From the NCBI GenBank assembly GCA_037176725.1, contig JAZBRS010000020.1:53038001-53102000 (forward strand): DNA of 64,000 nt, in the 5' to 3' direction. The notes below the pieces were generated by a model. The model was not told the origin of the DNA. It did no database searches and saw only the letters and a program-made list of their open reading frames with translations. This DNA is from Posidonia oceanica (lineage: Eukaryota > Streptophyta > Magnoliopsida > Alismatales > Posidoniaceae). Shown here in pieces: positions 33,225 through 61,288 of this stretch. Position 1 is the first letter of the stretch, and the number at the start of each line of letters is the position of its first letter. A program made the translations under genes and the position numbers.

Positions 33225-33240
33225 TGTGCGGAAGAGAAAT

Positions 33241-34700: not shown

Positions 34701-34784
34701 GTTGTCTGCTAGATTCTCAGCGTACAACGTTGGCCGCTGGTTCTCCAACGGCTAACATTGGTCACTGGTTTTCCAACGTCCAAT
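34701..34784. repeat. Hairpin array cluster 1 (3 units, 28-bp period)
   Basis: Arms GTTGTCTGC/GCGTACAAC, GTTGGCCGC/ACGGCTAAC, ATTGGTCAC/ACGTCCAAT, all with 10-nt loops; two loops are TGGTTCTCCA and TGGTTTTCCA and extend the stem. Confidence 0.85.
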
Positions 34785-34957
34785 GTGGCAACCCAGTCAG
34801 CCAAAGCTTTCCTTATTTGGCTTAATCCAAAAATCATGTTCTTGCCTTCTTTGGAACCTGTTAACCGGTCAAAGCCATCAAAGTCGAGTTTAATCACACT
34901 TAAAGACTCCTTAATTGGAGAATCTTCTCCAATCCTGGCAGTTATGCATCGGAGGTC

Positions 34958-35013
34958 ATTATACACGAGTACTCTCGCTTATAACGTTATACGCTGGTTT
35001 TCCAGCGTATAAC
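34958..35013. repeat. Hairpin array cluster 2 (2 units, 28-bp period)
   Basis: ATTATACAC/GCTTATAAC, then a perfect GTTATACGC/GCGTATAAC with loop TGGTTTTCCA, making a 12-bp stem with a TTTT loop. Confidence 0.9.
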
Positions 35014-35077
35014 ACTTCTGAAACAGGAAACTCTGCTGACTTGGCATTTGTGTCTTTTTTTGTTCCTCCCTTACTTC

Positions 35078-35084
35078 TATAAAA
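35078..35084 (+). promoter_or_regulatory. TATA box of LTR-B copy 1
   Basis: TATAAAA in CTTCTATAAAAGCAAGG, conserved at 37636-37642 in copy 2. Confidence 0.7.
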
Positions 35085-36189
35085 GCAAGGGTACCCCCAT
35101 TGAGTTTAAGGCCGGAATTTTCAGAGAGAAAAAGAGTTAAGAAACTTTTGGATCTCACATACTCTTGAGATTAAAAATCTTAGAGAAGTGAGGTCTTAAG
35201 AATTGAAAGAGAGAAGAGAGATTTTTGAAAGAAGGAGAGTCTTCGAAAAAGCTTGAGGATCCGTTTGTCATTGTTGGCTTCATGTCAACACAGTTTGTAT
35301 CTTGTGCATAGACTGAGGAGACTCTATTTCATTTGTTTCCTTTTCATTTCTGATATTACATGTTTAATTCCATAGCATAATCAAGCATTTTTATTTCAAG
35401 TTCATATACTATTTTAACTAGGCATACAACTCTTTTAGTTGCAACCGGGGGGATTAAACCCCTCCGGTACGTATCTCACTACGCTTTCTTTATTTTCTTT
35501 TCTACTAATTCTGGATAGGTTACTACACATATTGATCCATCTTCATATTGTTTTGTTTGTTTTGCTTTGCTAACATTTGTCATACAAGGAGGAAGAAGGA
35601 AGAAAGAGCTTACCAAGCACGGGCACCCTTAGGTAACGCTGGCGTTGTCCCAAGGTAGCTGAACCCGCAACCACACTACATCTCCCCAAAGGCGTCTCGA
35701 GAGCCAGCGAAAGCGAATCGAGAGTGGCGATCACACCGATTCCATCACACGTGGAGTGACGGAGTCGGATACAAAAAAGGGGACCCCAAGAAAGAGAAGA
35801 TAGAGCGAGCAAGAGAGAGCCAAAAGAAGCGTCTTCTTCCCCAAACCTCCCTCATCATCTTCTTCTTCACCTCACTTCCAAAAACCCCATATCCACAGTC
35901 TGGCTATTACGGTGGGATGGCTAAAAGTGCCCCCGTGCAAGGTAAGTGAACCCTTCCTTTCTTCTTCCTCCTTCGTTATTAACATTATTAGTTTAGTTTT
36001 AGTTTCTTATTTTCTCGTATGTTTTAAAGAAGCGGCGAAATTCCTCGTAGAGTTTTGAGGCATCGTGATCTTTTCCGTTTGTTTTCTACATTTCAGTAAC
36101 TGAAATCACCTCCCCCTTCTCTCTAGATTCTCAGGCGTGGGGGTGATTTGTAAAAATTACTGGTTTTTCTAAAAAAATACTGTCAGTAC

Positions 36190-36245
36190 GTTATACGCGT
36201 GATCTAGCGCATCTAACATTGGACGCTGCAATGTCCGCGTCCAAC
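36190..36245. repeat. Hairpin array cluster 3 (2 units, 28-bp period)
   Basis: GTTATACGC/GCATCTAAC and ATTGGACGC/GCGTCCAAC, loops of 10. Confidence 0.85.
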
Positions 36246-36958
36246 GACTACTGAATAGAAACCCTTCTGTTTTAAAATTTCTTTTAGTTTTCCTTGTTAT
36301 AACTGGCTCGAAGAATTGAGGTGTGAGGTGATCGGCTCTGCCGTAGGGACCGGAACTTCAGTTTCTTTGGGTGCTTTGTAAAAAATAACAAAAAAAAAAT
36401 CACATCTTTTTGTATGACTTGCATGGCCCTCATTGGGAACTAATTCCTTGTATCATTTCTTGGGTTATATAAGTAACCATCTAGGTCCCAAGCACCTCTG
36501 TTGCAAAGGGCTTAGGAAAGGTACTTGTATTGTCATTATCTTTTACTAGGGGCCCTCCTTCTTCCTTGGCCTTTTGTGAAAGATAATTAGAACCCCAAGC
36601 TTTGACTTGTATTCTCCCCTCCCCCCCCCTTTCGGTGGTTTGTTTATTGCATTTGTGTATGGATATGTGAGCGACCCGATCAATCCTGAGTACGCTGGGC
36701 TCTACCTCTACGGGGTAGGAATCTAAGTGTATTCAGGCTCCCCTTAGCATCCTCAGGAGTTGAGGTAGGTGGTAGTACCAATCATATTCACCTATCTTGT
36801 GAGGAGCCTTAGAAATTCCAAAAAAAAAGCCATACCTAAGCCTTAAGGAACCCAGAGAGCTATAGCAGGTTTAAAGCACTAATCACAAAGCAAAAACCAA
36901 AATTAAAATCTTAAATCGCTGTTTGAAAGTGTTTCTGTGCAGTTCTCTGAAACAAGGC

Positions 36959-37014
36959 ATTGGCCACTGAGATCGCTGTGTTTAACATTATACACAGAAG
37001 GTCAAGCGTCTAAC
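36959..37014. repeat. Hairpin array cluster 4 (2 units, 28-bp period)
   Basis: ATTGGCCAC/GTGTTTAAC and ATTATACAC/GCGTCTAAC, loops of 10. Confidence 0.8.
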
Positions 37015-37258
37015 GCATTCTTTGTGTGGCAGTTATATTTTTAACTCCTTGTAGATACCCCGTTTTGGCACTCCCTTCTTGTTAGGATAGTCTCTTGCAT
37101 TAGGTCGCTTTTAGAGGCCCCCCACCCATTGCTGAATCTCACTTGAGCCAAATGTTCCTCTCAAGTCCAAAATGCTATACCTTTCTAAGCCCCAAATGTT
37201 AGTAACCTGAGTGTTCTTCATGTCCTGACCAAATTTGGAAGTCAAACTAATTAAGGGT

Positions 37259-37342
37259 GTTGTCCGCTGGATTCTCAGCGTACAACATTGGCCGCTGGTT
37301 TTCCAGCGGCTAACATTGGCCATTGGCTTTCCAGCGTCCAAC
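37259..37342. repeat. Hairpin array cluster 5 (3 units, 28-bp period)
   Basis: GTTGTCCGC/GCGTACAAC, ATTGGCCGC/GCGGCTAAC, ATTGGCCAT/GCGTCCAAC, all with 10-nt loops. Homologous to cluster 1. Confidence 0.85.
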
Positions 37343-37515: not shown

Positions 37516-37571
37516 GTTATACGCGAGTTCTCTCGCTTATAACGTTATACGCTGGTTTTCCAACGTATAAC
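37516..37571. repeat. Hairpin array cluster 6 (2 units, 28-bp period)
   Basis: GTTATACGC/GCTTATAAC and GTTATACGC/ACGTATAAC, loops of 10. Homologous to cluster 2. Confidence 0.85.
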
Positions 37572-38755: not shown

Positions 38756-38811
38756 GTTATACACGTGATCTGGCGCATCTAACATTAGATGCTGCAATAT
38801 CCGCGTCTAAT
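38756..38811. repeat. Hairpin array cluster 7 (2 units, 28-bp period)
   Basis: GTTATACAC/GCATCTAAC and ATTAGATGC/GCGTCTAAT. Against cluster 3 the second stem has changed G-C to A-T on both arms, so pairing is kept. Confidence 0.85.
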
Positions 38812-39525: not shown

Positions 39526-39581
39526 GTTAGCTGCTGCAATCCTTGCGTATAACGTTGTATGCAGCAGATTAAGCGTCTAAC
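39526..39581. repeat. Hairpin array cluster 8 (2 units, 28-bp period)
   Basis: GTTAGCTGC/GCGTATAAC and GTTGTATGC/GCGTCTAAC, loops of 10. Confidence 0.8.
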
Positions 39582-39963: not shown

Positions 39964-40020
39964 GTTGAACGCTTGATATTGAGCGTCCAACGTTATACGC
40001 TGTATACGGAGGCGTATTAC
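39964..40020. repeat. Hairpin array cluster 9, 40 bases before gag
   Basis: GTTGAACGC/GCGTCCAAC (loop 10) and GTTATACGC/GCGTATTAC (loop 11). It ends 39 bases before the gag ATG. Confidence 0.85.
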
Positions 40021-40059: not shown

Positions 40060-41924
40060 ATGATGAATCAAATCCATGAAGCTGATCAGCCAGAAAGAGA
40101 GAGATCAGATTCTCCAAGTACTTCGGGAGAGGAGCCTATAATCTACCACCCAATCACCGGAGAAGTCTTAGATCCAGATTCAATTCAGTACAAAGTCATG
40201 TACCAGTTCTTAAACGAAGAGACATTAGCCCAAACGAGGCCATGTCTAAACGACCTCCAACAGCCACCCCACCTCGGTGAAGGACAACGAAGGCCAGATG
40301 CGGACCATACCCCTGAAGATCTATACCAAGGACTAAATGGCAACCCACCGCCGGACACAAACCACCCAGGACAGAGCACAATGCTCAACAGAGCTTATAA
40401 CTCAAGGGCCAACCCCTTGACTCAGGAACACAACCACATGCCACATGGCGAATACAAGGAAGGAGTCTATCTAAGACATCCCCGACCACCCCCGGCAGGC
40501 AATCAGCCTCGGCCGGATCATCATTACCACCAGGCATCTCCCCCGCAATACGAGCAGGTCACACCTCAACATTTCTACAACAGCTACCTCCATCAGCAGC
40601 AGAACCATCCATCCTTCAATTCACATGTCCCGACCCCATCAGCTGGGATAACAAATTTGGATGAGATGAGAAAAATGCTCAGTGCATTAGGGGTGCATAC
40701 CCAGACTCCGGCAAACTTTGACATGAGCCGGTTCCCCCCATTTAGATTACCTCCAGGTTTCAAGTATCCAAAGACCCTCAAGTTCAATGGGACCACCAAC
40801 CCACTCAGTCACCTAGTGCGGTTCCAAATGGAGTCAGCCCCTTATTTCCATGATTTGGGGCTCGTGGTACACCTGTTCTTCTACTCACTCGAAGGAGAGC
40901 CAATGGATTGGTTTCTCACTCTCTCCAAGGAAGACCTCAGCAGCTTTGATAAGATCAGAGAGAGCTTCCTTACAAAGTACCAGCACAAGATAGATCTAAA
41001 GCCAACCTTCCACGACCTAAGCAAGGAGGTCATGAAGCAAGGCGAAAGATGGGTTACATTCGCCAACAGATGGCGGGAAATGGCGGCCAGATCAGGACTG
41101 ACCATTCCGGAGAGACAAGTGGTCCAAACCCTCATTACAAACACAACTGGACCAATGAAGAAGGGGCTAGTGAATGCCTATTGCCCCAATGTTACGGCTT
41201 TGTATGAAGTGGCGCCTCTGTTAAAGAAAACTTGCATGAATTCATGGAGGAGCCAAAGAAAAGTCGGAAAGCACAGGTGATAGAGGGAGTGACCGGAGTC
41301 GTCAACAAGATGAGCCCTGCACCCAGGCCATTCGATCAAAGGGCTATACTGGCTTTACAGCAGCCACCATGGAGCAACCCTCCTCCTCAGCAGCAAGCCT
41401 GGAGCCACCCTCCTCCTCAGCAACAACCAACATGGAGCCACCCTCCTCCTCAGCAACAACAAACGTGGAGCCGCCCTCCTCAGCAGCAGCAGGCATGGAA
41501 TAATCCTCCTCCTCAGTAATAGATCCGCCCAATGTGGAATGCTCCCCGGCCGCAATGGATCAGGGGTAATCAAAATGGCTAGGCCAACAACCAAAATCCC
41601 CCCAACAACACTGGGAATGGGAGCGGTTATCATAATGTTCTCCCTCCAATGCCACGCAAAAAGGGAAAAAGAGACCATTACCCTCCTCTACCAGTCACAC
41701 TGGCCGACATGTTTATAGAAATGGAGGAAGCAAAAGCGCTCGAATTCTCGCTAGTTAGGCCTGAATTGCCAAATTGTGACCGGAACAAATACTGCCCGTT
41801 CCATAGAATGCATAGTCACAACATCAATGACTGCTGGACCTTCAGGGACATATTCTATGACATGGTGGAGGCAGATGTGCTTGAATGGGATGTCTTGGTC
41901 AAAAGAGCCAAACAAAGAAAGTAG
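40060..41924 (+). pseudogene. gag of element W (Tat lineage)
   Basis: ATG at 40060 (MMNQIHEADQPERE) is preferred over upstream TTG starts because it follows the hairpins and opens the conserved frame. The N-terminal third is Pro/Gln/His-rich. The gag core (about 40740-41230) reads FKYPKTLKFNGTTNPLSHLV, MDWFLTLSKEDLSSF, FLTKYQHKIDL, WVTFANRWREMAARSG. A frameshift near 41225 (TTAAAGAAAAC) moves to another frame, which holds a 33-36-bp coding minisatellite of Gln-Gln-Trp-Ser-His-Pro type (41360-41519), stops TAA 41517, TAG 41520 and TAG 41580, then the zinc knuckle CPFHRMHSHNINDC (about 41795-41840). It ends at TAG 41922. Gag forms the particle and binds RNA. Confidence 0.85.
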
Positions 41925-42760
41925 ACAGGGACATCTCAACAGGTCTACGCGACCCTCTCCCCAAGCATCAAGTCATGGCATTCCAGGATGAGCAGCTCCC
42001 TAATCCATCAGAGGACTAGGACAACCATGTTGAACTAGAAGAAGACTGGGATAATCAACTTGAACAATGGAGAATAATCTCAGATGATGACTGGGACAGT
42101 GAGGCGGATGAAGGACTAACAGTAAAGGAGCTCCTTAGCCAGTTCAACCTCACCGCAGTAGTGGAGGAGCCACAAGAAGATATAGAGGAAGAAAGCCAAG
42201 TTCAAAAAGTCAATCAGCAATTTGAACGAGAAAATATAGTCTTCAAGGATTCTGAGCTTCCACCCCCACATAAGTAAGAGCTGCCACTGGTCATCATAGT
42301 AGGAATTAATGATAATGTGCTGCAAGGAGTATTGGTCGACACTGGAGCAAGCCGAAGCCTCAGTTCTCTCTCCACACTCCGGAGCTTCGGGCTAAATGAG
42401 GGCGAGCTGGATAGGACTCCCTTTATGTGCACTGGGTTTGATCAGAAAGAAAAGTTGGCACTAGGGACAATACCCATGGAAATCATAGTCGGTCCTTTGA
42501 CCAGTATCACTTCGGTGATCATTATGAAGGAGGAAGTCCTGGAGCCACTCATCCTAGGGAGGTCTTGGCTAGCAGAGGTCAGGGCTGTAACATCTTCAAT
42601 ACATCAATTGCTAAAATTCAAATACCAAGGAGTAGTTGTTAACATTCTAGCCAACCGACCAGGGATTCTATGCACATTTAAGATGCCAGAGCCACAAATT
42701 GCAATCCTTCGGGAGGAGGAGGAGTCACAACGTCTGCCATGGAGAAAATCACCACTATGA
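41925..42760 (+). pseudogene. Element W: first retropepsin domain (PR1)
   Basis: After a frame change, an acidic linker (EEDWDNQLEQW, VKELLSQFNL) leads to VLVDTGASRSLSSLSTLRSF at about 42344, with ILGRSWLAEV closing the fold near 42560. The DTGA motif is the aspartic protease active site. Stops TAG near 42017 and TAA near 42275 lie in the linker; TGA at 42758 ends the frame. This lies upstream of the canonical Tat protease and appears to be an extra copy. Confidence 0.75.
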
Positions 42761-44041
42761 GAGCCCAAGTTGCTGTCCCCACCAGTCTCCCCAATCTTCA
42801 GAGCAGCAAGGCCACCATCAAGTCAATTGCCAGCCCTCAGCACTTCAATACTCCAGAGCACTACTACTCCATCCTCCCCAATCTTTTGAGTGCCAACAGA
42901 GCAGCGAGCTAGGGCCACAAAGCCACTAGAGCTTGGCGGATCTATACAGAAGGAGTCCATCTTTGCCTGGCCGCTCAAGAAGGGAGCATCTAAAGGAAAT
43001 GAGACTGCTGCGCCCATCACCAGAGGAGGGAGGCTGTCAAACCGAATCATGCCACCAGCAGAGCAAGCAGAGCCGGTCAGACCTGAAGTAGGACCCGGGT
43101 CGGCAGAATATGACATCCTAGAGCAATTAAAAAAGACACAGGCTAGGATCTTGATCTATGACCTCATAAATAGCTCAAATGAACACTAGAAAGCTCTGCT
43201 AGAAGTGCTAGAGAAGGCCCAAGTTGCCCCGGACATGCCAGCGGAGGAACTCCATATCATAGCTACAGCAGCCTTTGTAGAGCCAATCATTACTTTTGCT
43301 GATAGCGAGTTGGCACCAATAGAGAGGAGAAAGGCTCCATTGAATGTAACCATTTCTATAAACAATCACCTAAATTCTTGAAGTGCTCATAGATACTGGT
43401 GCATCAATGAACATTTGCTCGTTGAATACAATACGAGCCTTGGGCGGGAATGAAGCCTCCTTAACCCCCAATGATATGACGATTGTCGGGTATGATGACA
43501 GCAAAAGAAAAGCGCACGGCAAGTGGACCACAAAGATAGGGATAGGACCAGCTCAGGTTCTAACCCAACTAATCGTCATAGACATCAATGTCCCATATCA
43601 GATCATCCTGGGGAGACAATGGCTAGACAGTTTAAAAGGAGTATCATCTCCTCGGCACCAATGCTTGAAATTCCCACACGATGGGAAAATCATCAAGATA
43701 GCGGGAGACATACCAGGCCAAGAAGCAGAGGCAAATGTGATATACCTGCCGCACCAGTTCAGTGTGTGAGAAAAGCTGACCCAAGCCGAAAAAGCAAGAA
43801 TGTAGTGTCCATGGTCGAGCTGAGGGACAAGTGGGCCAGGCCCAGGCTATTTCACAAGAAGAAGGAACCCTTCAAAAGCCAAAGACCATCCATGAATGTG
43901 GGATGGGAAATCATGAGGAGAATTGGCTACAAGAAAGGCCAGGGCCTAGGCCCAGAAGGAAAGGGAATGAAGGAGCCAGTGAAGGCCTGTGATAGAGAAG
44001 GAAGGGGAGGACTCGATTTCGACCAGTTCCCCGACGGATGA
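42761..44041 (+). pseudogene. Element W: second retropepsin (PR2) and G-patch
   Basis: PR2 (43383-43769) reads MLIDTGASMNICSLNTIRAL, QIILGRQWLDS, then HQCLKFPHDGKIIKI, which is the usual Tat protease ending. After a frameshift comes a G-patch (about 43895-43985: MNVGWEIMRRIGYKKGQGLG), also canonical in Tat pol. Between PR1 and PR2 (42761-43380) the frame is broken, but LPNLLSANRAA-type residues suggest coding ancestry. G-patch modules bind nucleic acid. Confidence 0.75.
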
Positions 44042-46894
44042 CCATTACAGTGGAATCTACAAGGACATTTCACCAGCATAGGGAGATTCGACCCGAATTA
44101 ATCCCCTTTGGGAAATATTATTTTGGCGCAATCAACCAAACACACTCTCCAAAGTGCAAAGGACACAGCTGACGTAAACATTTCCAGCTTATTCCAAACA
44201 CTTGAATTGCCAGCAGAGCCTCACGAAGGTCAGACTGCAAGGGAGTTGACAGCAGAGCCACATGAAGGCTAGACTGTAGCAGCAAAACCTCACGAAGGTC
44301 AGACTGCAGAAGAGTTGCCAGCAAAATCTCACGAAGGTCAGACTACAACATCGCCGCCACCACTGTTAGGTGCACCGGCCCCCGAACCTTCAGATCGGCC
44401 ACCTCTTCCTTCTTCTCCCACTTCTTCTAGCACCGCCGCTTCCAAGCCTCCGCCTCCTCTAGCTTCGGACATCTTTTCCTCCATGGAGCAAAGGCCGGGG
44501 CAAACTCTACGCAAGTCACAACGACTCATAGACAGGGTCCGCCGCCTCACGACTGATCTCTCTGAAGGGCTACAACCTCAAAGACCAGAAGTTGACCCTG
44601 ATCTAGGGGCCGACTATGAACTTCTGATGGGAACGTCAATCCTGACGAGCCCGCCTAGAGAGGCTCCTACCTCTACTGATGGAGGTAACTCTAGGGGCAT
44701 CCCCCTAGATGCTGTAAATAAAACTTTGTTTAATTTTGCATTGTTTTCATTTCCTAGGAATAAAGGTAATTTACTTTCTGTTTTCAATAAGGGAGAGGAT
44801 CACCATGTTAGTTCTAGCAGCTCGCTGTCAACTTCGACCACTGCTTCCAAAACTGTGCGCGTGTGTCAATATACGGAGGCATTGCCTCAGGAGCTGGCTA
44901 CTGTTAACATGGTCTTCCTAGTAGAAGAGTTTGATCGGTTTGGGAAGTGTGCAGGAATAGAGGCATATGAGCTGGTTAGCTGCAATGATGAGGAAGAAGA
45001 TCAAGAGGCCGACTCAGACCTCCTTAAGCACCTCATGGACAAATATGATGAGCAAACCAAGGCAGCTGAGGAGGAGACCGTGGAGGTCAACCTGGGAACC
45101 ACCGAAGAGCCAAAACCAATACTCATAAGTGCAAGCCTGAGCCCACAAGAGCGGGAGGAAATGGTCCAAATATTGAAAGAATTTGTGGATGTGCTGGCCT
45201 TCAAATACAAGGATATGCCTAGACTACACTCAGCCCTAGTGGAACACCTGCTTCCACTAAACTCTGGAACCAAGCCCGTCAAGCAAAAGATGAGGCGACT
45301 AAGGCCAGAACTCGCCCTCAAATTCAAAGAAGAAATTGACAAGCTCCACAAAGCAAAATTCATCGGAGTGGTTGTGTACCCCAGCTGGGTCTCAAATATA
45401 GTACCAATGGCCAAAAAGGATGGGAAAGTTCGGGTTTGCATTGACTATCGCAACCTCAACGCCGCCTGTCCCAAGGATGACTTCCCTTTGCCACATATTG
45501 ACTTGCTAGTGGACAATACAGTAGGATTTGAGATGCTATCTTTCATGGATGGTTTGTCTTGTTACAACTACATCAAGCTAGCAGAGGGGGACCAAGAGAA
45601 GACGTCGTTCATCACACCATGGGGGACGTACTGCTACGTAGTCATGCCATTCAGTCTCAAGAACGCCGGCGCAACATATCAGAGAACGATGATGGCCATC
45701 TTCCACGACATGATGCACAATTGCATGGAAGTGTATGTTGATGATATCTTGATCAAATCAAGAACAAGGGAGGCACACTTTGAGGCGCTAAGAAGGGTAC
45801 TGAGCAGAGCAAGGCAATATCAGCTGAAAATGAACCCAAAGAAATGTGTGTTTGGGGTAACTGCCGGGAAGCTACTGGGCTTCATCATCAACAAAAGGGG
45901 AATCGAGGTGGACCCACAGAAGGCCAGAGCAATAGCACAGATGCCTCCGCCCAGAAACATCAAGGAACTCAGAGGACTTATTGGCCACTTACAATTCATT
46001 AGGAGATTCATCTCACAGCATGTAGATCAATGTAAGTCATTTTATGAGTTACTGAAGGGAGGAAGGGAATTCACTTGGGATGAGAAATGCCAGAAAGCTT
46101 TTGATGAACTCAAAGCATATCTCATGACTCCCCCAGTCTTATCAGCATCGGTGCTAGGGAAGCCTTTGCTACTCTATGTGGTAGCCACTGCATCGTCAAT
46201 AGGGGTAGTGCTAGCTCAACATGATGAGGACGGGAAGAAGGAAAAAGCTATCTACTATCTAAGTAGAACTTTCCTAGGTTATGAAGAGAAGTATACAGCC
46301 ATAGAAAAGCACTGCTTGGCTTTGGTATGGGCATCTCAAAAGTTGAGACACTACTTCCTAGCCCATAAAGTCTGTTACATTGCCAAAATGGACCCAATCA
46401 AATATATGTTCGAGAAGCCAGCCCTCTTTGGAAGGTTGGCAAGGTGGCAACTCCTCCTTACTGAATTCGACTTGCAATATGTGTCCCAGAAGGCAGTCAA
46501 GGGGCAGGCCATTGCAGATCACCTGGCAGAATTACCAATAGAAGATTATCAACTAGTCCGAACAGACTTCCCAAATGAGGAGATCCTGGAAATACAGGCC
46601 ACTGAGTCTCTCACTCAACAATGGACCCTCTACTTTGATGGAGCACTCAACAGACAAGGGGTAGGCATCGGAGTGGCACACTTCACTCCGGAAGGAGTTC
46701 TCATTCCTCGAGCTGTACAACTGAACTTCGCCGCAAATACCAACAATATTGCAGAATACGAGGCCTTGATCCTCAGACTACGCCTAACACTGGAGCTAGG
46801 AGCAAGGCGGCTGAAACTCATCGGAGACTCCCAATTGGTTCTAAGACAAATTCTGAACAAGTATAGAATCCTCAACCCAAGGCTAGAAGAATAG
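44042..46894 (+). pseudogene. Element W pol: reverse transcriptase and two RNase H domains
   Basis: The frame open at 44315-46894 (859 codons) extends in phase upstream to 44042 through TAG 44270, TAA near 44098 and TGA 44039. Upstream is a four-copy PAEPHEGQT peptide repeat in which one copy reads EG-TAG-T where the others have CAG. RT motifs: KKDGKVRVCIDYRNLNAACP, SFMDGLSCYNYIKL, FITPWGTYCYVVMPFSLKNA, and the catalytic YVDDILIK at codons 474-481. First RNase H (about codons 610-740) includes IGVVLAQHDEDG and RTFLGYEEKYTAIEKHCLAL. The second, archaeal-type RNase H (from about codon 769: WTLYFDGALNRQGVGIGV, AEYEALIL, GDSQLV) marks the Tat lineage. TAG 46892 precedes the integrase in the same frame. 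Confidence 0.92.
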
Positions 46895-48401: not shown

Positions 48402-50169
48402 TATGCACATTGAGCCATTAGACTACCCGTAATCAAGGGCCCTCTGCTGTTGGAGCCTAGGAATCTTGCCTTAGCCTCATCCCACAAACACCTTGTGGGA
48501 GAAGGAAAGGAAATGGTCCCACACTAAGATAGAGGCAAATCATAAGGAGCCCCCTCCCAGTTCATGAATAACAAGTCCACACACATCCCTCGAGTCAGAT
48601 GCGTTACCCTAGTACAAATTGGGTAGGCATCTAAGGCCAAAACCTAGAAGCACAGAAAATAGGGGAGTGTACCGAATGAAAGAGTGTCTCGGTTCGTCAA
48701 AGAACAAGTATCCATTGACTGAGCACTCAGAAGGGGTGAGACTACTTGTCAAAGTACCCAGAAAAGAAAGCCAAAAAGGGTCAGAAAAGAAGGTAGCAAA
48801 GAAGCTGTCCATGTGTAAGGAAAAAGAAAGAGAGTGGAAAAGACGGCAGCAAAGAAGCTGTCTAAGAGTCAAAAACTGAAAAACTAGGGAATACTAAGCA
48901 CAGTAGGAATCAACCTTGAACTAAGAGGGGTTTAGGCTTCAAATCTTCAGCAGACATCTTAGGATAGGGCATGGACTTTCCTTCTACCCACATCCTGCAC
49001 TGTACACTAAGAGGTAAGGCATAGAGGCCTAGGTCTAGGGGCAGTTAGGTGCCAAAGCAAGCCCGAGGTATTTTCTGACTCTAGGATGCACAAGGGACCA
49101 AGTTGTCAAGGTTTTCCAACCATGAGGTCCCCAGTTTCCCAACTTCCCGGAGGATTCTTCATCTCCCATAAAATCCAAAAAATGATAAAATCAAAAATCA
49201 AAAAAAAAAATGATAAAGTTAAAAATCCAAAAAATGATAAAATCAAAAATGCAAAACTATGATAAAATCAAAAATTCAAAAAAAAATCAAAAATAAAAAA
49301 TCCAAAAAAAAATGATAAAGTCAAAAATCCAAAAAAATGATGATAAAGTCAAAAAATCCAAAAAAAATATAAAATCAAAAATCTAAAAAATAGTGAGCAG
49401 GGTAAAATCTACCCAACCAACATCATCTCATGAAACTGATAACAAGTAAAGGCCAGTGATGCAGAAATCTAGGACATTTTACGACTCCGCGTCGTACTCG
49501 ACCCCTCCTATTCAGGACGATCGCTTGGTATTCGCCTACGAGGTAAGACTGGGATCTCAAGAAGAGACAGTCCCTCATCTGGCATATCATCTTTAGACAA
49601 TAAAGCTGAGGCCAGTACTTGTTATTCAAAACCTAAGTTTCTCCATTGTATTAAGACTTCTTTCCCATTCATAGCATTTGGTTTGCTTAAAATATACATT
49701 GTATATAGATTGCAACCAAGTTTTCTGTAACCATGCTGATTTCGCAATATTAAGGATGTTTCTGAGCTTCCAGAAGTCACTTTGGACTAGGGCAATAATA
49801 CTCCTAGATGGACTGACAAATTTGCTGAGGTAATGCAGGAAAACAGTTCAGGGGCATTAAACGAGGAAATATTAGCATCCAACGTTGGACGCGCCATCTG
49901 AAGCGTATAACGATCAACAGAGGGATATTGGACGCTTGATATTTTACGTCTTACGTTATAAGTGCCAGTTTGAGCGTCTTACGTTTTAATTGTGACTTAA
50001 ACTGCAGATTTTGGACAGAGGGCCCTTGATCAAATATCAAAGCCACTAGGGAGTATTTCTAAACTCAGAACAGTCCAAAACACATGAACAAGGATGAAAA
50101 ATGAAATATATATATTAATTCCCTTGAAAAGATACATGGTCCCTAAAAATAAAAATTACAATGATTGCC
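48402..50169 (+). other. Non-coding spacer of W with A-rich linker
   Basis: No gene recognised. 49165-49395 is a run of AAAATCAAAAATCC and AATGATAAAGTC phrases, comparable with the A-rich linker after gag in X. Hairpin cluster 10 follows at 49856. Confidence 0.55.
49856..49982. repeat. Hairpin array cluster 10 (4 units in two pairs)
   Basis: ATTAAACGA/GCATCCAAC and GTTGGACGC/GCGTATAAC (49856-49911), then ATTGGACGC/ACGTCTTAC and GTTATAAGT/GCGTCTTAC (49927-49982). All loops 10. Confidence 0.8.
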
Positions 50170-51515
50170 TATCTAATCATCTTCTTCCTTTTCCTGTGCA
50201 GCACGCCTGTCGCTTCAACCCACTCCTCGGGTTTGGGCAGCAGCTTTGAATACCACTTCTAGTGCGCATCCTCCCGTGGTAGGCAGCAAGTCGAAGGAGC
50301 AGTTGATGGCCCCTCTGAATCATCATGGTGATCCAGAGACGACCAAACAGCCTGAATGTAGTACACCATTACTGCATCAGATGGAAAACTGCACTCCCGA
50401 ACCCGAATACGAGGAATGAAGCTCAGCCGAGGTGGCACCCCTTTCTTCTGCCCCACCATCTCGAAGCAACGGTGGGAGTTGTACACTACAAAATGGGTGG
50501 GCCCTATCAACTCCAGCTCAACTGAAGAACCTCATGCCTGGTGCTTATGAGAAAGGGACGTGGAAGGCGTAGAAATGTCAATAGGGGCAGCAGACAAAGA
50601 GCGAACCGTTTCCTCAATCAAATCTGTCTTCATGGACCCGAGCCTCAGGAAATGGACCTGCAGCCACCTGGAAAGAAGGAAAGGAGAGCCTACAAAATCC
50701 CCTCTGGTGGAAATGCTGGTCAGGCCGAGATATGTGGCAGCAAGAATGGCGACTGAAGGAGAGCGCCAGAAATGCTCAGTAAGGCCTATCAAGAACTAAG
50801 TATGATAGACATCCAAGGAGAAATCCTTGGTGACAAATAAAGTGAGGCCTCCAATCAGTAAATGCAGACACACCAGCAGTTGATCCTGAGAGGTAGAGTC
50901 CTCAATCCGCCGAAAGCTGAAGTACAAATGCGCCAAGTTGAGTCTGCGACCTTTGACCACTGGGAAGGTAGGCAGAAGGGTGAAGATACGGTCTATATAT
51001 GTTTGCATATCTGCTGTTCCATGCGGCAATGGGAAGTCAATATCCGGCCGGGTCGCTCCAATCTGAGTTACACCAGGCAGGCCGTGAACATCCTCTACTA
51101 GGATTGTCGCCTCACAACCCCCAAAGAAGAAAGTATGAGTCTCAGGACTCCAAAAGGCGCATGAGGCATGAAGCAGGGGCCAGCCCAAGTTTATGCCCAA
51201 TAAATCCAAAAGTCCAACAAAGCGCGTACGGGCCAAAACATATTTCCTCTCTCAAGCCCAAAGCACAAAATCCTTCACCCAAGTGGAGTCGTAGGGGAAG
51301 TCATTGTCAAAGCAAGGTGTCTTGGTAAAATTGAGGATTTCCTGCAAAGAAATTTGGAAGCATGAGGAACAAAGGAGTGTGAAGGGACCAATGAAGAAGA
51401 TCATGCCTTCCCCATCTTGATAAGGGACATCATATGTCCTTCAATCTCTTCCGAAGGTTTTACGACCCCCTTCTTGTTGTGCATGAAGACATTGGGGACT
51501 GAGCTAGAAGCCATG
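50170..51515 (-). pseudogene. Antisense PMD-family gene 1 of element W
   Basis: Minus strand, start ATG 51515 (MASSSVPNVFMHNKKGVVKP). A first exon of about 35 codons, an intron ending TTTGCAG near 51342, then a long exon: WVKDFVLWA, TGA, ERKYVLARTRFVGLLDLLG, FWSPETHTFFFGGCEATIL (PMD core), DVYHT, TAG, FLIGLTEHFW, GSPFLLSRWLQVHF, and near 50490 LIGPTHFVVYNSHRCF. Stops: TGA near 51270 (fits CGA), TAG at 50796, TGA near 50532 (fits CGA) and TAG near 50256. It is a paralogue of 55881-57260 (shared YNSHRCF and YNPQ-stop-CF). It lies antisense to W between pol and the 3' arrays. Confidence 0.7.
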
Positions 51516-51731: not shown

Positions 51732-51862
51732 GTTGTACGTGAGACGGGGCGCATCCAACGTTGGCTGCGCCATTTGACGCGTATAATGTTTAGAGTAGCT
51801 ACCGGCATTGGACGCAGACATTCAAGCGGACAACATTGGCCGTAGTAGATAAGGCGTATAAC
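51732..51862. repeat. Hairpin array cluster 11 (4 units in two pairs)
   Basis: GTTGTACGT/GCATCCAAC and GTTGGCTGC/GCGTATAAT (51732-51787), then ATTGGACGC/GCGGACAAC and ATTGGCCGT/GCGTATAAC (51807-51862). Loops 10. It lies just upstream of gene 1 on the gene's own strand. Confidence 0.85.
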
Positions 51863-52345
51863 GTTTTATCAGTGACTTTAGTTATTGAACTTGGCTGGAT
51901 TACCCCCTAATCCGTGATTGAGTTGCATGCACCCGTTTTGCCCATTCCAGAGGTTTAACTAAGTTGAAATACACGTGTGAGCATTGGTTTCATGTTTTTT
52001 GGACATCCGAGCCAATCGGAATCTCTGGTTGCTCGTTTCATCAAGTAAATGGCTCGTTAAGGCGTTGACGACTTCAAAATTCAATTTTTAAGCTTCCAGG
52101 TGAAATCTTTCCTTATAACTATGTCATTTACATACTATTTCACTTGAATATGCTGGTTTCAAGTTAATTTGGATTAAGGGCCATTATTTTACCATATTGG
52201 TCACTTAAGCTCGCTTTAGCTTTGAGAAAGGTAATTTAAAAGAAGTATTTGACAAGTTTACTGAGTGTGCAAAAATCTATATCAATTCAAAATATACAAT
52301 TGTTCTACAAGGTCACCGGGGCATACCCTTGAAGTACAAAAGCTA
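51863..52345. other. Spacer between antisense genes 1 and 2
   Basis: AT-rich, no recognised feature. Confidence 0.4.
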
Positions 52346-55300
52346 GGGGGCACTCTCTCCCTCGCCCTCAAGAGCTGAAGTAGGAGCCAGAGAAGGGGCA
52401 GTAGGGGGACAAGGCGACTGTCGAACCGAAACGCCTGACGGGGCCCTAGAGACAGATCGAGAATAGTGGCTACCCGACCGGTGGCTCGGTACAGAAGGAA
52501 CAGGCACCCCGAGCCTAGCACCAGCTGAAAAAGCAAACCTTCGGTAGTGCCCAAGCTCAAGCTCAAGCTGGGAGATAACGCCTGCCGTGCCCTGAGGAGA
52601 GAAGCAACCCAAAATATCAAATATAAGCAAGGACATGGAAGACATAAAGAAGCACCGAATTAAATTGTACCACCTGAGATTGGGCAATCTCAGTGTCCCT
52701 ATCAGCAACCTGCTGCTCCAGCTCCCAGATCCGAGTGCTGCTAGTGGCCACTGTCCCCTCCAGCTCCTCCAACCTCCCGACAGAGCTGGCAGTAATGAAG
52801 TCACCAGCCCGCTCCCTCAGCTCGCCCTCTAGATAAGCGACCTACAAGCAATGGCGTCAGGACCAAGGGAATTTCAAAAGCAGAAATAAAATAAAAGCAT
52901 GTTTACCTTCTCCTGGAGCTGGGAGATCTCTTTTGAGCAGTCCGGAGGAGGAGCACTGCTAGTTGAAGACTGAAAATGAAGAATCAAGTCAGTTACAATT
53001 CATAGCCAGACTATAAAAGCTACTTGTGAAAATACCTGAGAGGCACGCAGATGATCAATCTCCCTGGTCAGAACGGAGAGCTGCTGGGTCAAGTGGCACT
53101 CCTGCTGAGCCCGCACATCGACCTCCTTGAGCTGCAAAAGAAAGAAAGCAAGTTAGCCAAATTGAATTAACAGTCTACAAAATGAAATTCAGAAGCTCAC
53201 CGCTATCTCTAGCTGGGCTCGGGAAGACTGAACCACCTCCAGCATGGCCGCGCAGGACACCACCGCCTCCCCGGGATCTGTGTCCCGCAAAGGAAGGTTC
53301 CCGCGCCCAAGGAAGTGGGACTGGTGGAAGATCATCAGAGAAGAAAACTCCCGGTCTATCCACTCGGCCTACACCGCCTCATCCTCCTCTGTAGCATCTG
53401 TTGGAGCGGGGGAACCACGACGGGCCCAGTCCAGGAGCTATGGACCATAGACGTCCACCCAGTGGCGAGCACGGCTGCCCCCGCCACGTGTCTCTCACCA
53501 AACTCGGTGAGGAGGAGGTGAAGGCTGAGCCTGCCAGCACCCCAGCTATCATAGTGCCCTGCCGATCTGCTAGAAGTGACAGTGGTTCCAGCAGTGGATC
53601 CATACGACCCGGTCGAAAATGGCCCGATCACGGGCAATCTTGGGGACGCTGGCATGCTCTCCCTCAGCATAGGGATGCCAAACCACCTGAAAGGAGCAAT
53701 ACATATCAGCAAGCGGCATAAACAAATAAACAGAAGCTGAAATTAAAAGAAACAAGTTAGCTGAGCTGGGACAAGGAGCTCGAAAAGCAGACGATTGACA
53801 TAGCGATTGTCATCTACAGGCTTGAGGGCCTGCTCAGCAGTAGCCCAAAACAGTCCCCGAGGAAAGGGGACACCAGTAGGAGGAACCGGAGGAGGGGCAG
53901 GTCGCAGAAAGGTGAAGTGGTCCCATGCCCACATCTACACGCAAAATAAGGAAGCTGTTAGCAAGAATATAATATCCAATGCAAGCTTAAATATGCAGAT
54001 TTACCTGAAAGAAGGGTAGGTTCCCGCCCAGCTGGTGAGAACTACCGTCAGTGAAGCAGAATAGGGTGGAGTACAGGTGCGCCAAGCTGGCCGCACCCTA
54101 GGCGTACTCTCCCACACGCTCCAAGTCCGCCAGAAAAGGAAGGAACCATGCCGAGAGCTTCGAGGAGTGCGAGAAGAGCACCTCCCCGAACAGCACCAGG
54201 AGGAAGGCCCACAGCTGCTGGTCAGCCTCCACACCTGGTCCGGCTACTATCTCCGCCAGCTCACTCACTCGGCGAACTGTGGAAGTGATCACCATGAGCT
54301 GCTCCCTGCTCATGGCTAACTGGCATCCAATAAGCTCCTGCGCCAAAACCGAGTACCCCGGGCGCACCTGCCCTGTCACTGGTCTGCCTGTGACCCGGAG
54401 ACCAGTCAGCCACGCCATGTCCTCAGGGGAGAGGACAAACTCGCCCGCTCTCGTAACGATCGAGCTCGTTCGGAAGCTCCACTGCTCTACAACCGCCTCT
54501 AAAAACATCAGACGGAGGGGAAAGTCCGGGATGGACAAGAAATGCCCAAATCCCATTCGATCCAGACGCTCCTGCTGGAAAGAAGCCAACAAAGTGTAGG
54601 ACCGGCAGACCTGACCCCAGTAGCAGCGGGTCACGGTCGGTGCTCGACTCTACAAGCAAGCAGGAGAACTATCAGTTAGGATGAAATAATTGAACAAAAT
54701 AAGGAAAAAAGAATGAAAAATGTATACCTACCCCCTAGAAGCCAGTGTGGCAGTGGTATACTCAGATCGGGACGCGTCCCTACGCAGTCCCGATGCCTGC
54801 ACCTTGTCCCTAGAGATCTGCTCCCGCAAGTAGTCTGGGGGATCCCTCGCATCGCCCTCCGCCACCCGTCGGACGAAGTCAACCATGTTCTGCCACCAAC
54901 CGTCGTCCTCGCCAAACTACGCAAGGAAGGGGTCGACTGGCCTCGCCTCGGGCACCTTCGAGGGCCCCGTCTCGTCTAGGCTGACCTCAGGTATCGTCTC
55001 TGAGACCGTCTCCACTGAATCCTCCGAGCTAAAGGAGGTGCGAGAACCGGAGACCGCCTCTGCCGTCGTCTCTACGGCCTCCCTGGAACCAGAGTCCTCC
55101 CCCATGGTGGCCTCACTAACCGTTGCCTCCGCCTCCACGGCGTCGTCACCAACTGCCACCTTGGCCTCCGCGGTACCACCAACGGCAACCCCCGTCTTCG
55201 CTCCTGCAGCCTCGGCATCGCCACCGGACGTCGCCTCGAGTCCCACCACGGCACCACCAGCCTCCACCACCCCTGCCGCAGTCCGGCCGGCCTGCACGGC

Positions 55301-55579
55301 CACCCTAGCAGCCGGCCCAGGGACAGCAGCCACTGAACTCGCCCCCGCCGGCGTGCACCTGCCTGCCACGGCCTCGCCAGCACCTCCCGCAGCCCTGGCT
55401 GCCGTTTCCCACGCCACAGCAACCCCAGCCGCCGCCTTGCCATAGGGGGAAGGGCCGGTCTGTGCCCTTTTGACCGCCCGAGTATAGAAATGCGAGTATC
55501 GCCTCTCCATCAAGGTATGTTCGCCGAAATGGGGAGGAAGGTCGCCGGAGAAGAAGAAGAAGGAGGAGCAGATGGCCAC
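52346..55579 (-). pseudogene. Antisense PMD plus coiled-coil gene 2 of element W, multi-exon
   Basis: Minus strand. Exon 1 (55579-54732) starts MAICSSFFFFSGDLPPHFGE, is Ala/Val/Glu-rich, and carries TAG at 54917 before FGEDDGWWQNMVDFVRRVAE. Intron 54731-54650. Exon 2 (54649-54005) is the PMD core: RCYWGQVCRSYTLLASFQQE, FRTSSIVTRAGEFVLSPEDM, with TAG at 54098 where the sister copy near 780 has TGG. Exon 3 (from 53934) begins MWAWDHFTFLRPAPPPVP; its donor reads AG-CT instead of AG-GT near 53757. Exon 4 starts at 53686 (VVWHPYAEGEHASV) and has TAG at 53570, which the sister copy shares. Four or five short exons encode a coiled-coil tail (LEQQVADRDTEIAQSQ) ending near 52346. Phase and splice sites are mostly preserved, so this was a real spliced gene. 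Its strand, opposite to pol, would protect introns during retrotransposition. Confidence 0.8.
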
Positions 55580-55880
55580 CCGCGTCGTAGGATGAGGGCT
55601 TTATACCTTTCAACGTTGTACGCGTGAATCCCAGCGTCCAACGCCTCAGGATGGAAGAATGTTATACACGCCCTATGACGCGTTCAACGTTTTGCGAATT
55701 AAAACGTTAGCCGTTGGTTTTCCAGCGTATAACGTTGGATGCTCCATTTTGAGCGTACAATGCTTTATGTTCAGGGAAGTGTTCTGAATTCTGATATTCT
55801 CATTCAACTCATACAAATTCATTCAAAAGAGACCAAAGAGACGAAATAAATTTTATTGATGATAAATGATACATTTCTAA
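55580..55880. repeat. Hairpin array cluster 12 and spacer between antisense genes 2 and 3
   Basis: Units at 55615-55642 (GTTGTACGC/GCGTCCAAC), 55661-55688 (GTTATACAC/GCGTTCAAC) and 55706-55761 (GTTAGCCGT/GCGTATAAC, GTTGGATGC/GCGTACAAT). Loops 10. The rest is AT-rich. Confidence 0.85.
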
Positions 55881-57260
55881 CTACATCTTCTGTCTCTTTG
55901 AAAGAAATTCAATGAACAATTTAGGACGCACGCCCTCGTACCAAACATCATAGGTTGCAAGAGAGATGGCTTCACGATCCACGTTCGAGTTCTCCCATGT
56001 AGAAAGGACTCGATTTCGTCCCTTCCCGTCCCAAGTACCAGCCTGATAGAAGACCTGGATGATGTCCCCAGGGGTGTCCCTCAAGCGTGGGAGAATCATA
56101 TCAGAGAAACGTGGCAAGGGAGGTATAGCCCGAGGAGTACCCAGCATTGAGAAGCATCATTGAGGGTTGTACCTCACAAATTCGGTCGCCCCAATCAGCA
56201 TCAATAAATACTTTGGGTCAGACACTGTCCTGAAAGACGAGGGGGTACTGAAGAAGTCCATCTGGGACTTGACCTTGCAAGCGCATAAATGGCGAATGAG
56301 CTCCTCCAAAGGAATGCTAGCATCAAAAGCAGGTAGAAGAAAATGCTCCTCCAGCCAGTGCAGAACTAGGAACGGTGAGCCAAAGAATGGCCCCCTGAGG
56401 CAGGCACTAGATAAGCCCTGGATGGTAAAAGCCAAAATAGACTGACTCAAACATTTCTCTGGGTTGCGCACGCAGATGCACATGAGTTCAGCATGGTAGG
56501 CACTAATAGTCAGAGCTTCATTTGGGAAGAGCACCAGTCCTCCGATCAGAATAAAGACGCATTCCATGCAAGAAGCCTCAGAGCGGATGCTGTTGCACTA
56601 TTTCAAGAAAAATTTCCACAAGGAGGAGAGTTTGATATAGCCATCCAGCACTAGGTCCTCCGGCACAACAACAGAGCCAAAGATGCGCTTTAAGAGAGAA
56701 AAAGAACTTACCACCCCGATTGGCAAAAGGTAGGCATCCCTATAGTAAATGGATGGATCGGCATGTCGAGTACCTAGGAGGGGGCTCACCTCCTCCAAAA
56801 GAATGGTCAGTTCCCCCAAAGAAGAAAAGAACGTGTGAGTCAAGGGATTCCATAGCCCACAGAGGCCGAAGAGCACCTTCCAGTCAACAGGTTGCCGTAG
56901 CTGGCGAAGGGCCTAACAGAGACCAGTCTCCTCCAAGTGCTCCTAATACTTCTTCAAGGCTCAAGAGCGGAATTGTTGAACCCAGTCCAACTGATAGGCT
57001 TCCGAGTCATCGTCGTTGTTGGCAGAAGATAGGGGCTATGAAGTAAGGAAAAATTAGCAGAAGTACAAGAATGGGAGTATGGGGAAATGATGAAAATAGG
57101 GAGTACCTTCTCATGCACCAATAGGTTCGCCAAATGGTTGGGTATAGCCTCCAGCCGGAGTTGCACCATGTCAGAAAGAGAGGAGAAGACGGCCACCTGG
57201 AAAGCATGACATGGGATATCACTCAAATCCATGAGGAGAAGCACAAGCCCTGGCAAGCAA
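55881..57260 (-). pseudogene. Antisense PMD-family gene 3 of element W
   Basis: Minus strand. An upstream exon (LSDIPCHAFQVAVFSSLSDM to LLVHEK) ends at a donor near 57107. The next exon starts after TTCATAG near 57037 (PLSSANNDDDSEAYQLDWVQ). It continues with WKVLFGLCGLWNPLTHTFF and LGELTILLEEVSPLLG (PMD core), then VFILIGGLVLFPNEALTISA, GSPFLVLHWLEEHFLLPAF, and a tail ending FIEFLSKRQKM. In-frame stops: TGA and two TAG near 56890-56965, TAG at 56598 and TGA near 56157; the last aligns with Arg in gene 1, so a CGA or similar codon was lost. Start codon uncertain. Confidence 0.7.
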
Positions 57261-57428: not shown

Positions 57429-57512
57429 GTTATACGAGACCGCAACGACGTCCAACATTAGCCGCGGTTCTTTAGCCGTCCAATGTTGAACACTAGCAAT
57501 CAAGTGTCCAAC
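57429..57512. repeat. Hairpin array cluster 13 (3 units, 28-bp period)
   Basis: GTTATACGA/ACGTCCAAC, ATTAGCCGC/CCGTCCAAT, GTTGAACAC/GTGTCCAAC, all with loops of 10. Confidence 0.85.
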
Positions 57513-58865: not shown

Positions 58866-59458
58866 CGGCAAGTCAAGAAAAGAACCCCAGAGCATAACTG
58901 GGATAATAAAGCAAACCAACCAAGAAAAGATCCCCGGAGCATAACCGAGACACCAAAGCAAAGATCCTCGGAGCATAACCGGGACACCAAAGCAAAGATC
59001 CCCGAAGCACAACCACGATAACAAAGCAAACCAAGGTAAAGATCCCCAGAGCATAACCGGGACACCAAAGCAAAGATCCCTGGAGCATAACCAGGATACC
59101 AAAGCAAAGATCCTCGGAGCACAACCGGGATAACAAAGCAAAGCAAAACAAAGATCCCCAGAGCATAACTGAGACACCAAAGTAAAGATCCCTGTAGCAT
59201 AACCGGGACACCAAAGCAAAGATCCCCGAAGCACAACCGGGATAACAAAGCAAACCAAAGCAAAGATCCCCGGAGCATAACCGGGACACCAAAGCAAAGA
59301 TCCCTGGAGCACAACTGGGATAACTAAGCAAACCAATCAAGAAAGATCCCTAGAGCATAACCGGGACACCAAAGCAAAGATCCCCGGAGCATAATCGGGA
59401 CACCAAAGTAAAGATTTCCGGAGCATAACCGGGACATTAAAGTAAAGATCCCCAGAGC
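58866..59458. repeat. 34-bp minisatellite
   Basis: About 15 copies of AAAGATCCCCGGAGCATAAC plus CGGGACACCAAAGC, some lengthened by a CAAACCAA insert. CCCGG and CCGGG form a foldback. It runs directly into the LTR start at 59459 with no clear polypurine tract. Confidence 0.9.
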
Positions 59459-59680
59459 CTGTAGACACCTCAATTTGACAGCCTGGAAGTTGGTTGTTCT
59501 CTTTTGCAGGCTCGTGTGGACTCTAGAATGGCATCCCTTTTCTATCCCTTTTTTCTAACCCATTTTACAAGCCCAAAACCTTGCCCAATCCCTAGAAGCC
59601 TTAACCCAAGCTTTTTACAACTTTTAAAACCCTTCTAGGCCCAAGCCCAAGCCCATTTGCAGCTTTTGCCAACTAAGCAC

Positions 59681-59796
59681 GTTGTACGCTAGAACAGGCA
59701 GCATCCAATGTTGGACGTGTCTTGTGCCAGCGTCCAATGTTGGACGCGCCCTCTACTGCCGTCCAACGTTGGACGCCTCCTGCTCCAGCATCCAAC
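59681..59796. repeat. Hairpin array cluster 14 (4 units, exact 29-bp period)
   Basis: GTTGTACGC/GCATCCAAT, GTTGGACGT/GCGTCCAAT, GTTGGACGC/CCGTCCAAC, GTTGGACGC/GCATCCAAC. Every loop is 11 nt, total 116 bases. Confidence 0.92.
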
Positions 59797-60646
59797 GGCT
59801 CAGCTACAGCGACGGCTGTTCCGCCCCTTCCAGCTCACCAGCCGTCCAATCCCCTGCCTCCCCGCACTTACGACCTGTCCTCTCTTGCCCTCCAGCTCAT
59901 CCACTACCTTCCAAGGATGAGTAACTACCTCTGGAACCAATCATTTCAAATACAATCGAAAACCCGCTCTCTTCGCCCTCACAAACTTCGGCCGCCTGTG
60001 TCAACCACCGCCATGGCTCCACTGGCCATCTGACACACCTCTACCACAGCCCAGACATTCCTTGAGCCTCCCACACACCTAGAAGCCTTTGACATCACCT
60101 GCAACTGCCTGCAAATCCTCTGCAAAATCCACTGCCCGCACACGAACCCATGCACCAGATGCACAAAACAGCCCCATTCCCTCCATTCCAGCATTCACCA
60201 CACAGAGCGAGGAGAGAATTCGTCGACTCCAGAGCATAGAGGGATCATCCACCTCCGTCCTCGACCTTTCGCTGGATCTTCTGGTGCCTCCAACAGCTCG
60301 TGGGACCTCACCGGAGTTGGCTCTGCAGCAACCTCCGCAGCGCCGGCGATGAAGGAGCTTCCACCGTTCCAAGCCGTCTAAAGGTTAGTTTCTCTCCCCC
60401 TTAGGCCCATGCATGTTAGTGTGATGTTTTGCTATGCCTTCCATGCACTTAGCACAGCACACACCCCTCCACCACTTGGTTGTTCTGGCGATGAGGAGGA
60501 AGAGGTGGGTGGGGCAATCCACCTGTCATATTTCGGTGCCAAGCATACCACCATGCTTGTAATCGAACACTTTTGCTTGTTCGCTAGTTTATTTGAAGTT
60601 TTCAAGTGATTTGGCTGCCTCGCTTAACTGAAGCAAAGTTCAGTGT

Positions 60647-60703
60647 GTTGGATGCACCATCTGGTGCGTCCAACGTTGGGCGCCTGCTATAGCGGCGTCC
60701 AAC
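60647..60703. repeat. Hairpin array cluster 15 (2 units)
   Basis: GTTGGATGC/GCGTCCAAC with loop 10, GTTGGGCGC/GCGTCCAAC with loop 11. Confidence 0.9.
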
Positions 60704-60882
60704 ACTCTATTTTGCTTTGCCCTTGTTTTAATGCTTCCCATGCTTTGTTATTGCTTGTTTTTCTATAAATCCATGTAGCCCTCCTTTGCTTGTTTTCAGA
60801 TGTCATACCATGCCTATATCCATGCTTTGATCCATGCCTAAGCCTTTTTGCATGATTTAATTTCATCTTGCTTCCTGCCTAC

Positions 60883-60940
60883 GTTGGATGCCAGGGTGAG
60901 CTGTGTCCAACATTGGACGCTGGTTCATTCGGCGTCCAAC
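60883..60940. repeat. Hairpin array cluster 16 (2 units, 29-bp period)
   Basis: GTTGGATGC/GTGTCCAAC and ATTGGACGC/GCGTCCAAC, loops 11. Confidence 0.9.
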
Positions 60941-61230
60941 ACCTCTATTTGCTATAACTTACTGACATGCTTGTATCATGCTTATTTTTTATGTTTGGCC
61001 CCTATGGCAACCACGCTTAGGTTTGCTAAAATCTTTTTAAGTTGCATGCTCCTTTTGCAAGTTTTGTCCTTTATTTTCATGCATGCTTTCTCTTTTATTT
61101 CCTCTCATGCCTAAAATGTTGTTGAATGCTCCTTTCTTGCTTTGTTATGCCATCAGCATGTTTGCATGCATATAGGTGGGGTTTAGAGTTGAGCTCCCCC
61201 TTAGCATAGGTAAGCTTGCATGCTGTGGGA

Positions 61231-61288
61231 GTTGGACGCCAGAGCCTTCAGCGTCCAACGTTGGACGCTGCTGGCTCCAGCGTCTAAC
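61231..61288. repeat. Hairpin array cluster 17 (2 units, 29-bp period)
   Basis: GTTGGACGC/GCGTCCAAC and GTTGGACGC/GCGTCTAAC, loops 11. The junction is the perfect palindrome GCGTCCAACGTTGGACGC. Confidence 0.93.

Follow-up and report, generated by a model that had tools for sequence, protein, structure and literature searches.

Do the short dyads that recur through the non-coding DNA of a plant retrotransposon act as RNA hairpins, or are they double-stranded sites for a protein? The question is raised by a 64,000-nucleotide (nt) stretch of the Posidonia oceanica genome (assembly GCA_037176725.1, contig JAZBRS010000020.1, positions 53,038,001 to 53,102,000; here called the window), whose right half holds a long terminal repeat (LTR) retrotransposon that, judged from its coding domains, is a Ty3/gypsy element of the Tat clade (Ogre/Retand type). 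The original prediction described an array of at least 45 dyad units in 17 clusters between 34701 and 61288 and offered two readings, an RNA structure for packaging or dimerisation and a spaced palindromic protein-binding array. We find that the units are probably double-stranded DNA binding sites for a protein and not RNA hairpins. Directly observed are a motif at near-constant spacing that keeps to non-coding DNA and lies upstream of start codons and of several TATA boxes, together with arms that do not covary in units with a 10-nt gap.

Both arms of a unit were searched for by their consensus over the whole window, with no requirement that they pair, and 20 dinucleotide shuffles of 34401-62000 served as controls. 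Forty-five units were called (lowest score, 18.6), each made of a 9-nt arm, a gap of 10 or 11 nt, and an inverted 9-nt arm, so that the array is real, far above the shuffles, and its span is correct. A score of at least 20 is reached by 31 gap-10 and 10 gap-11 units, compared with 0 to 5 for each other gap length from 4 to 19 and 0 to 0.35 per gap length in the shuffles, which bears out the near-constant loop length. At a score of at least 18, 47 units with gap 10 or 11 are found, versus 0.9 and 0.85 per shuffle; two of them, both scoring 18.1 (63225-63252, and a chance-level match inside gag at 41053-41081), were left out. No unit with gap 10 or 11 reaches 18 in 1-34400, though other LTR-type repeats occur there. 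Matches with other gap lengths at score 18 number 17 in 1-34400 and 24 in 34401-64000, where 19 of them share an arm with a unit already counted. Strict abutment groups the 45 units into 21 runs (15 of two units, 3 of three, 1 of four, and 2 single units), and the 17 clusters are obtained when gaps shorter than 20 bp are bridged.

Two details of the predicted geometry hold in part. The inverted-arm arrangement stands, but a perfect 9/9 stem occurs in only 2 of the 45 units, with a mean of 6.7 Watson-Crick pairs. An 18-bp palindrome centered on AACGTT had been described at the junctions; among the 24 junctions where one unit abuts the next without a spacer, the center is exactly AACGTT in 11, and 12 of the other 13 read AACATT or AATGTT. 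These CA or TG forms suggest past CpG methylation and a partial decay of the array copies.

Many of the units lie in two LTR-like regions. Block B, 2.57 kb long and starting TGTAGATACC, is duplicated head to tail directly before gag (34491-37049 and 37050-39617, 89.8% identical). Region A2 (59460-61500) opens with TGTAGACACC at 59460 and directly adjoins the long 44/34-bp tandem repeats on the 3' side of the element; the tandem array at 57598-59458 holds none of the units. Because nine units are copies within the tandem duplication, most statistics use a non-duplicated set of 36 units in 17 strict runs, from which the nine units of the first block B copy are removed. The arrays, located by the arm-consensus scan with no strand assigned, are as follows:

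34701..34784, three units in the first block B copy, whose TGTAGATACC start lies about 210 bp before them
34958..35013, two units, followed after 65 bp by TATAAAA at 35078
36190..36245, two units in the first block B copy
36959..37014, two units close to the end of the first block B copy
37259..37342, three units in the second copy of block B
37516..37571, two units, followed after 65 bp by TATAAAA at 37636
38756..38811, two units in the second block B copy
39526..39581, two units close to the end of the second block B copy
39964..40020, two units, with the first gag ATG (40060) 40 bp downstream
49856..49982, two pairs (49856-49911 and 49927-49982) in the spacer that separates pol from the 3' end of antisense gene 1, with no start codon beside them
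51732..51862, two pairs; downstream of them on the minus strand lie TATAAAA at 51619 (113 bp away) and the antisense gene 1 candidate ATG (218 bp away)
55615..55761, four units, the first 105 bp upstream of the antisense gene 2 ATG and 10 bp upstream of TATAAAG at 55605 (minus strand)
57429..57512, three units, 197 bp upstream of the antisense gene 3 ATG
59681..59796, four gap-11 units in A2, whose TGTAGACACC start lies 221 bp before them
60647..60703, one gap-10 and one gap-11 unit, followed after 61 bp by TATAAAT at 60764
60883..60940, two gap-11 units in A2
61231..61288, two nearly perfect gap-11 units in A2

What is constant in these arrays is the half-site and its spacing. Each arm follows the 9-bp consensus GTTRKMCGC independently. 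The spacers share a mean identity of 0.35 between units, compared with 0.65 for the left arms (26 units), and yet the gap is exactly 10 nt in 25 of the 26 non-duplicated units left of 59460, which belong to element B, and 11 nt in 9 of the 10 to its right (Fisher p = 1e-6, with the caveat that units within one run are not independent). Insertions and deletions do arise in this DNA, as shown by the 17 gap events per 259 substitutions in the duplicated block. A position weight matrix built from the very arms it scores gives 85 of the 90 arms a score of at least 7, and outside the units this threshold is reached at 11 places in 34401-61990 and at 21 in 1-34390. Fixed spacing, free spacer letters, and half-sites that outside the units are no commoner than in the left half of the window would be expected of a dimeric or oligomeric DNA-binding protein, and this pattern of constant spacing with variable filler favors the predicted protein-binding array.

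The other predicted reading, an RNA structure for packaging or dimerisation, requires that the two arms of a unit stay paired as their letters change, and this is not what we see. In the 26 non-duplicated gap-10 units (25 from B and 1 from A2), 78.6% of the cells pair, the same as when right arms are shuffled among units (78.6%, with 265 of 500 shuffles as high). At pair 5, a position with many Gs and many Ts, 17 of the 26 are mismatched. Mismatches over the 36 units comprise 26 G·T and 24 A·C, indicating no overall G·U preference. Watson-Crick pairs average 6.72 per unit, versus 6.53 when arms are dealt at random (546/5000); over all 45 units the within-unit pairing exceeds the dealt value (62/5000), an excess that we discount because nine units are copies. 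Pairing across junctions is also above the dealt value, both for the 24 junctions (58/5000) and for the 19 left without the duplicate (181/5000). A test by purine/pyrimidine class gives 18 of 36 inside units (P = 0.12) and 12 of 19 at the junctions (P = 0.02); with A2 set aside the values are 9 of 26 (P = 0.49) and 6 of 13 (P = 0.13), neither of them a clear signal. The ten A2 units have fewer Watson-Crick pairs than dealt arms (7.70 versus 7.83). Given the absent arm covariation and the lack of an overall G·T excess, we reject an RNA hairpin array as the main reading for the gap-10 units.

The position of the arrays is best seen against the genes of the element:

40060..48400 (end approximate), plus strand, gag-pol, with weak gag/capsid matches, reverse transcriptase (RT), RNase H, an additional RNase H, and integrase zinc-binding and core domains (Pfam)
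50150..51514 (limits approximate), minus strand, antisense gene 1, with a weak match to the plant mobile domain (PMD; E = 1e-5, below the Pfam cut-off)
52330..55510 (limits approximate), minus strand, antisense gene 2, with a PMD match of E = 3e-15 (in 54098-54649) and several open frames
55860..57232 (limits approximate), minus strand, antisense gene 3, with a weak PMD match (E = 2e-5, below the Pfam cut-off)

None of the 17 strict runs falls in the coding intervals, which were drawn approximately and cover 58% of the span, so the clusters do lie outside gag-pol and the PMD exons as predicted. Arrays precede gag and all three antisense PMD-like genes, at 40, 218, 105, and 197 bp upstream of the respective candidate ATGs. 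The frames from the candidate ATGs of gag and of antisense genes 2 and 3 are open over the 40 to 42 codons translated, and that of antisense gene 1, from 51514, closes after 37 codons. Among the seven TATAAA[AGT] boxes in 34401-61500, five have the end of an array at most 120 bp upstream in the right orientation (10 to 113 bp), an association with P = 0.0016 when positions are drawn at random from the non-coding DNA; without the duplicate it is four of six boxes (P = 0.008). Both tests use hand-drawn, approximate limits for what is non-coding.

Placement is also repeated between the two LTR-like regions, each of which has its first array about 210 to 221 bp after its start and another 61 to 65 bp before a TATA box. 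Compared at an E value of 0.1, block B and A2 give eight matches, all of which fall on dyad arrays, and nothing else is common to them at this low stringency. Shared sites, unshared flanks, and a region-specific gap are as expected of functional sites that co-evolve with their binder. On this comparison the dyads are all that block B (37050-39617) and A2 (from 59460 on) offer toward a matching LTR at each end of the element, and the primer binding site motif TGGCGACTC does not follow block B. With the dyads as their only shared sequence, either two related families may be combined in a mosaic element, or A2 may be part of a neighboring one.

The domain order of gag-pol supports the assignment of the element. 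RT (380-539), RNase H (602-732), and RVT_3 (796-865) all lie in 44273-46894, and the integrase zinc-binding domain in 46895-47569. An additional RNase H between RNase H and integrase is described as the mark of the Tat clade (PMC6317226), and it has this place here, in the order of angiosperm Tat elements. The same source gives a PMD in extra open reading frames (ORFs) for 57% of Ogre elements, a frequent and not a defining trait; the match is strong in antisense gene 2 and weak in genes 1 and 3. RT homologues occur in many flowering plants, with Tasmannia lanceolata at 52% the best named match and two higher ones at 63% and 61% (among the best 120 of 1369), and no relatives were found by RT in the viral contig collection, searched with the single protein and a 15-row alignment. 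Two further PMD sequences lie in the window: an inverted, 75% identical relative of antisense gene 2 (52470-54880) at 1-2421, cut by the window edge, and a PMD/DUF7745 open frame of 324 codons at 32274-33248 on the minus strand (PMD E = 7.5e-15).

How might such sites work? The GTTRKMCGC half-sites form inward-facing pairs, 10 bp apart in element B and 11 bp apart in A2, the usual site being a run of two directly abutting pairs. We propose that these pairs, in promoters and elsewhere in the non-coding spacers, would be filled by a protein binding as a dimer or higher oligomer, and its occupancy may drive sense (gag-pol) and antisense (PMD) transcription together or keep host silencing marks off; protein binding, and activation or anti-silencing through it, are what we infer. 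The binder may be encoded by the element, with the antisense PMD genes as candidates, and to name a PMD protein in this role is a guess. In its fullest form, the antisense PMD proteins would constitute a self-encoded regulatory or anti-silencing system, binding the half-site pairs before gag and before each antisense gene, their own included, while families diverge by spacing (10 versus 11 bp) and half-site core, so that a counterpart of VANC would have evolved in a retrotransposon; we regard this extended version as speculative and rather unlikely.

Among known systems, the closest parallel with a worked-out mechanism is VANC, the element's own protein in the VANDAL transposons of Arabidopsis, described as drawn to a 9-bp tandem motif in non-coding DNA, where it removes silencing (PMC5735166, PMC10398659). 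Shared with the present array are a short 9-bp motif, its tandem repetition, and its location mostly in the non-coding DNA of the element; the tandem motif is absent from coding DNA here as well. In the accounts cited, VANDAL motifs lie upstream of the gene and in introns, with differing versions in related elements. However, VANDAL is a DNA transposon and the present element an LTR retrotransposon; VANDAL motifs share one orientation, whereas the arms here alternate in inverted orientation at a fixed spacing; and VANC binding was reported from chromatin immunoprecipitation sequencing and electrophoretic mobility shift assays, whereas binding to our array is predicted from sequence. The parallel is thus one of principle. 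Antisense additional ORFs have been described in Grande (gene23), Retand, and PvRetro13, that of Grande with its own promoter and a nuclear protein (PMC7264820); what differs here is that the antisense genes number three, match PMD, and all have the same kind of site array before them. The Arabidopsis PMD proteins MAIN and MAIL1 have been linked to the "DOWN" promoter motif, its recognition by them being given as only possible (PMC7156037).

Several observations weigh against binding sites for a protein, or against a binder from the element. Between the block B copies the arms are less alike than their surroundings (identity of 0.846 versus 0.904), so no selection on the arms is visible since the duplication. 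The box patterns and the 120-bp limit were chosen after the sequence had been seen, and with a looser box pattern the association drops to 5 of 13 distinct sites (P = 0.03). The site at 49856-49982, between convergent gene ends, fits no promoter, and the Pfam scan of the antisense frames found no DNA-binding domain. The whole analysis rests on one window and one element copy. Finally, the gap-11 units (10 rows, 9 of them from A2) pair slightly above shuffles when G·U is included (93.3% versus 91.2%, 51/500), their covariation stands at 39/500, and within A2 G·T mismatches exceed A·C (8 versus 3); given these mixed gap-11 results, an RNA role is possible for A2. Folding against shuffled controls, which the original prediction had put forward as a check, points the same way in number, as sense-strand z is negative for all 17 clusters (from -0.19 to -9.0, with a mean of -4.1), 12 fall below -2, and those of A2 fold strongly (-6.3 to -9.0). 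However, any palindrome folds, and the score is no evidence by itself.

The fold scores and the slight gap-11 covariation are what would speak for stem-loops serving the packaging, dimerisation, splicing, or translation of the element RNA. The 26 gap-10 units without covariation, the missing G·T excess, the fixed loop length, units that abut without linkers, and the absence of any Rfam match in the window at gathering scores stand against such stem-loops, which we consider improbable. To a similar degree we doubt that the array is a by-product without function, either a 28/29-bp tandem repeat or a mini-palindrome able to spread by itself, which slippage or ectopic exchange would have multiplied. 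The arms do decay like CpG-rich DNA between the block B copies, many tandem repeats lie in the window, and the largest non-chromovirus elements are described as often having tandem repeats in their non-coding DNA (PMC6317226). In those the tandem units are likewise non-coding; unlike the dyad runs, they form long homogeneous arrays, such as that at 57598-59458. A by-product fits poorly with spacers that diverge while arms and spacing persist, and with dispersed runs, mostly of two units, placed upstream of start codons.

The main rival concerns the identity of the binder. The element may have gathered tandem sites of an activating host transcription factor, an explanation that we hold to be possible, if less than likely. 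LTR retrotransposons such as Tnt1, Tto1, and ONSEN carry host-factor sites that switch them on, tandem U3 elements in Tnt1 and Tto1 and heat-shock sites in ONSEN, all in the LTR promoter. The likeness lies in the repetition of protein sites within the LTR promoter of such a plant element, and a host factor would require no new protein; the arrays close upstream of the five TATAAA boxes, which are spread over the two LTR-like regions and the starts of antisense genes 1 and 2, are in keeping with it. The sites of these elements lie in the LTR, whereas ours also flank internal sense and antisense genes, as paired dyads; some occupy the leader, the spacer where gene ends converge, and DNA downstream of the TATA box at 60764, which is more than a normal promoter covers. 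In addition, we can name no host factor with the site GCGTNNAACGTTNNACGC.

Outside the element, the 18-bp palindrome occurs in 43 stretches of the viral contigs, where the loose unit pattern gives eight stretches with one match each and none with a tandem pair. One of the eight (L035:11686-11722) has the palindrome with a gap-10 unit directly after it, which is probably chance, given the 43 stretches tried. Exact patterns of a junction plus second unit returned nothing from the viral and prokaryote collections (0 in viral_contigs, 0 in genome_contigs). A literature search on palindromic or stem-loop arrays in LTR elements yielded no description of such an array, as far as titles and the starts of abstracts tell, and one for the motif letters in print brought nothing on this subject among the papers listed.

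The left half of the window has repeats of its own. Direct repeats at 8914-11969 and 28474-31562 are 91% identical and without dyads, the first being followed by TGGCGACTCCGCTGGGG; they are perhaps the LTRs of another Tat-like element. Tandem repeats of 28-bp and 65-bp units at 7001-7958 and 17339-18821 contain other short dyads and fold only weakly better than shuffles. Across the other tandem repeats of the window, consensus units fold no better than z -1.8 (9 of 12 units), and we do not count them as dyad arrays of the same kind. Open frames with an APGPDG stretch at 21718-27960 resemble a non-LTR retrotransposon insertion.

The function of antisense extra genes in plant LTR retrotransposons has been called an open question (PMC7264820). 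With a defined DNA site ahead of gag and of every antisense gene, the PMD proteins now have a specific target against which to be tried. Should they bind it, retrotransposons, like DNA transposons, would encode targeted anti-silencing or self-activation, and the domesticated PMD genes MAIN and MAIL1 would gain a likely ancestral activity.

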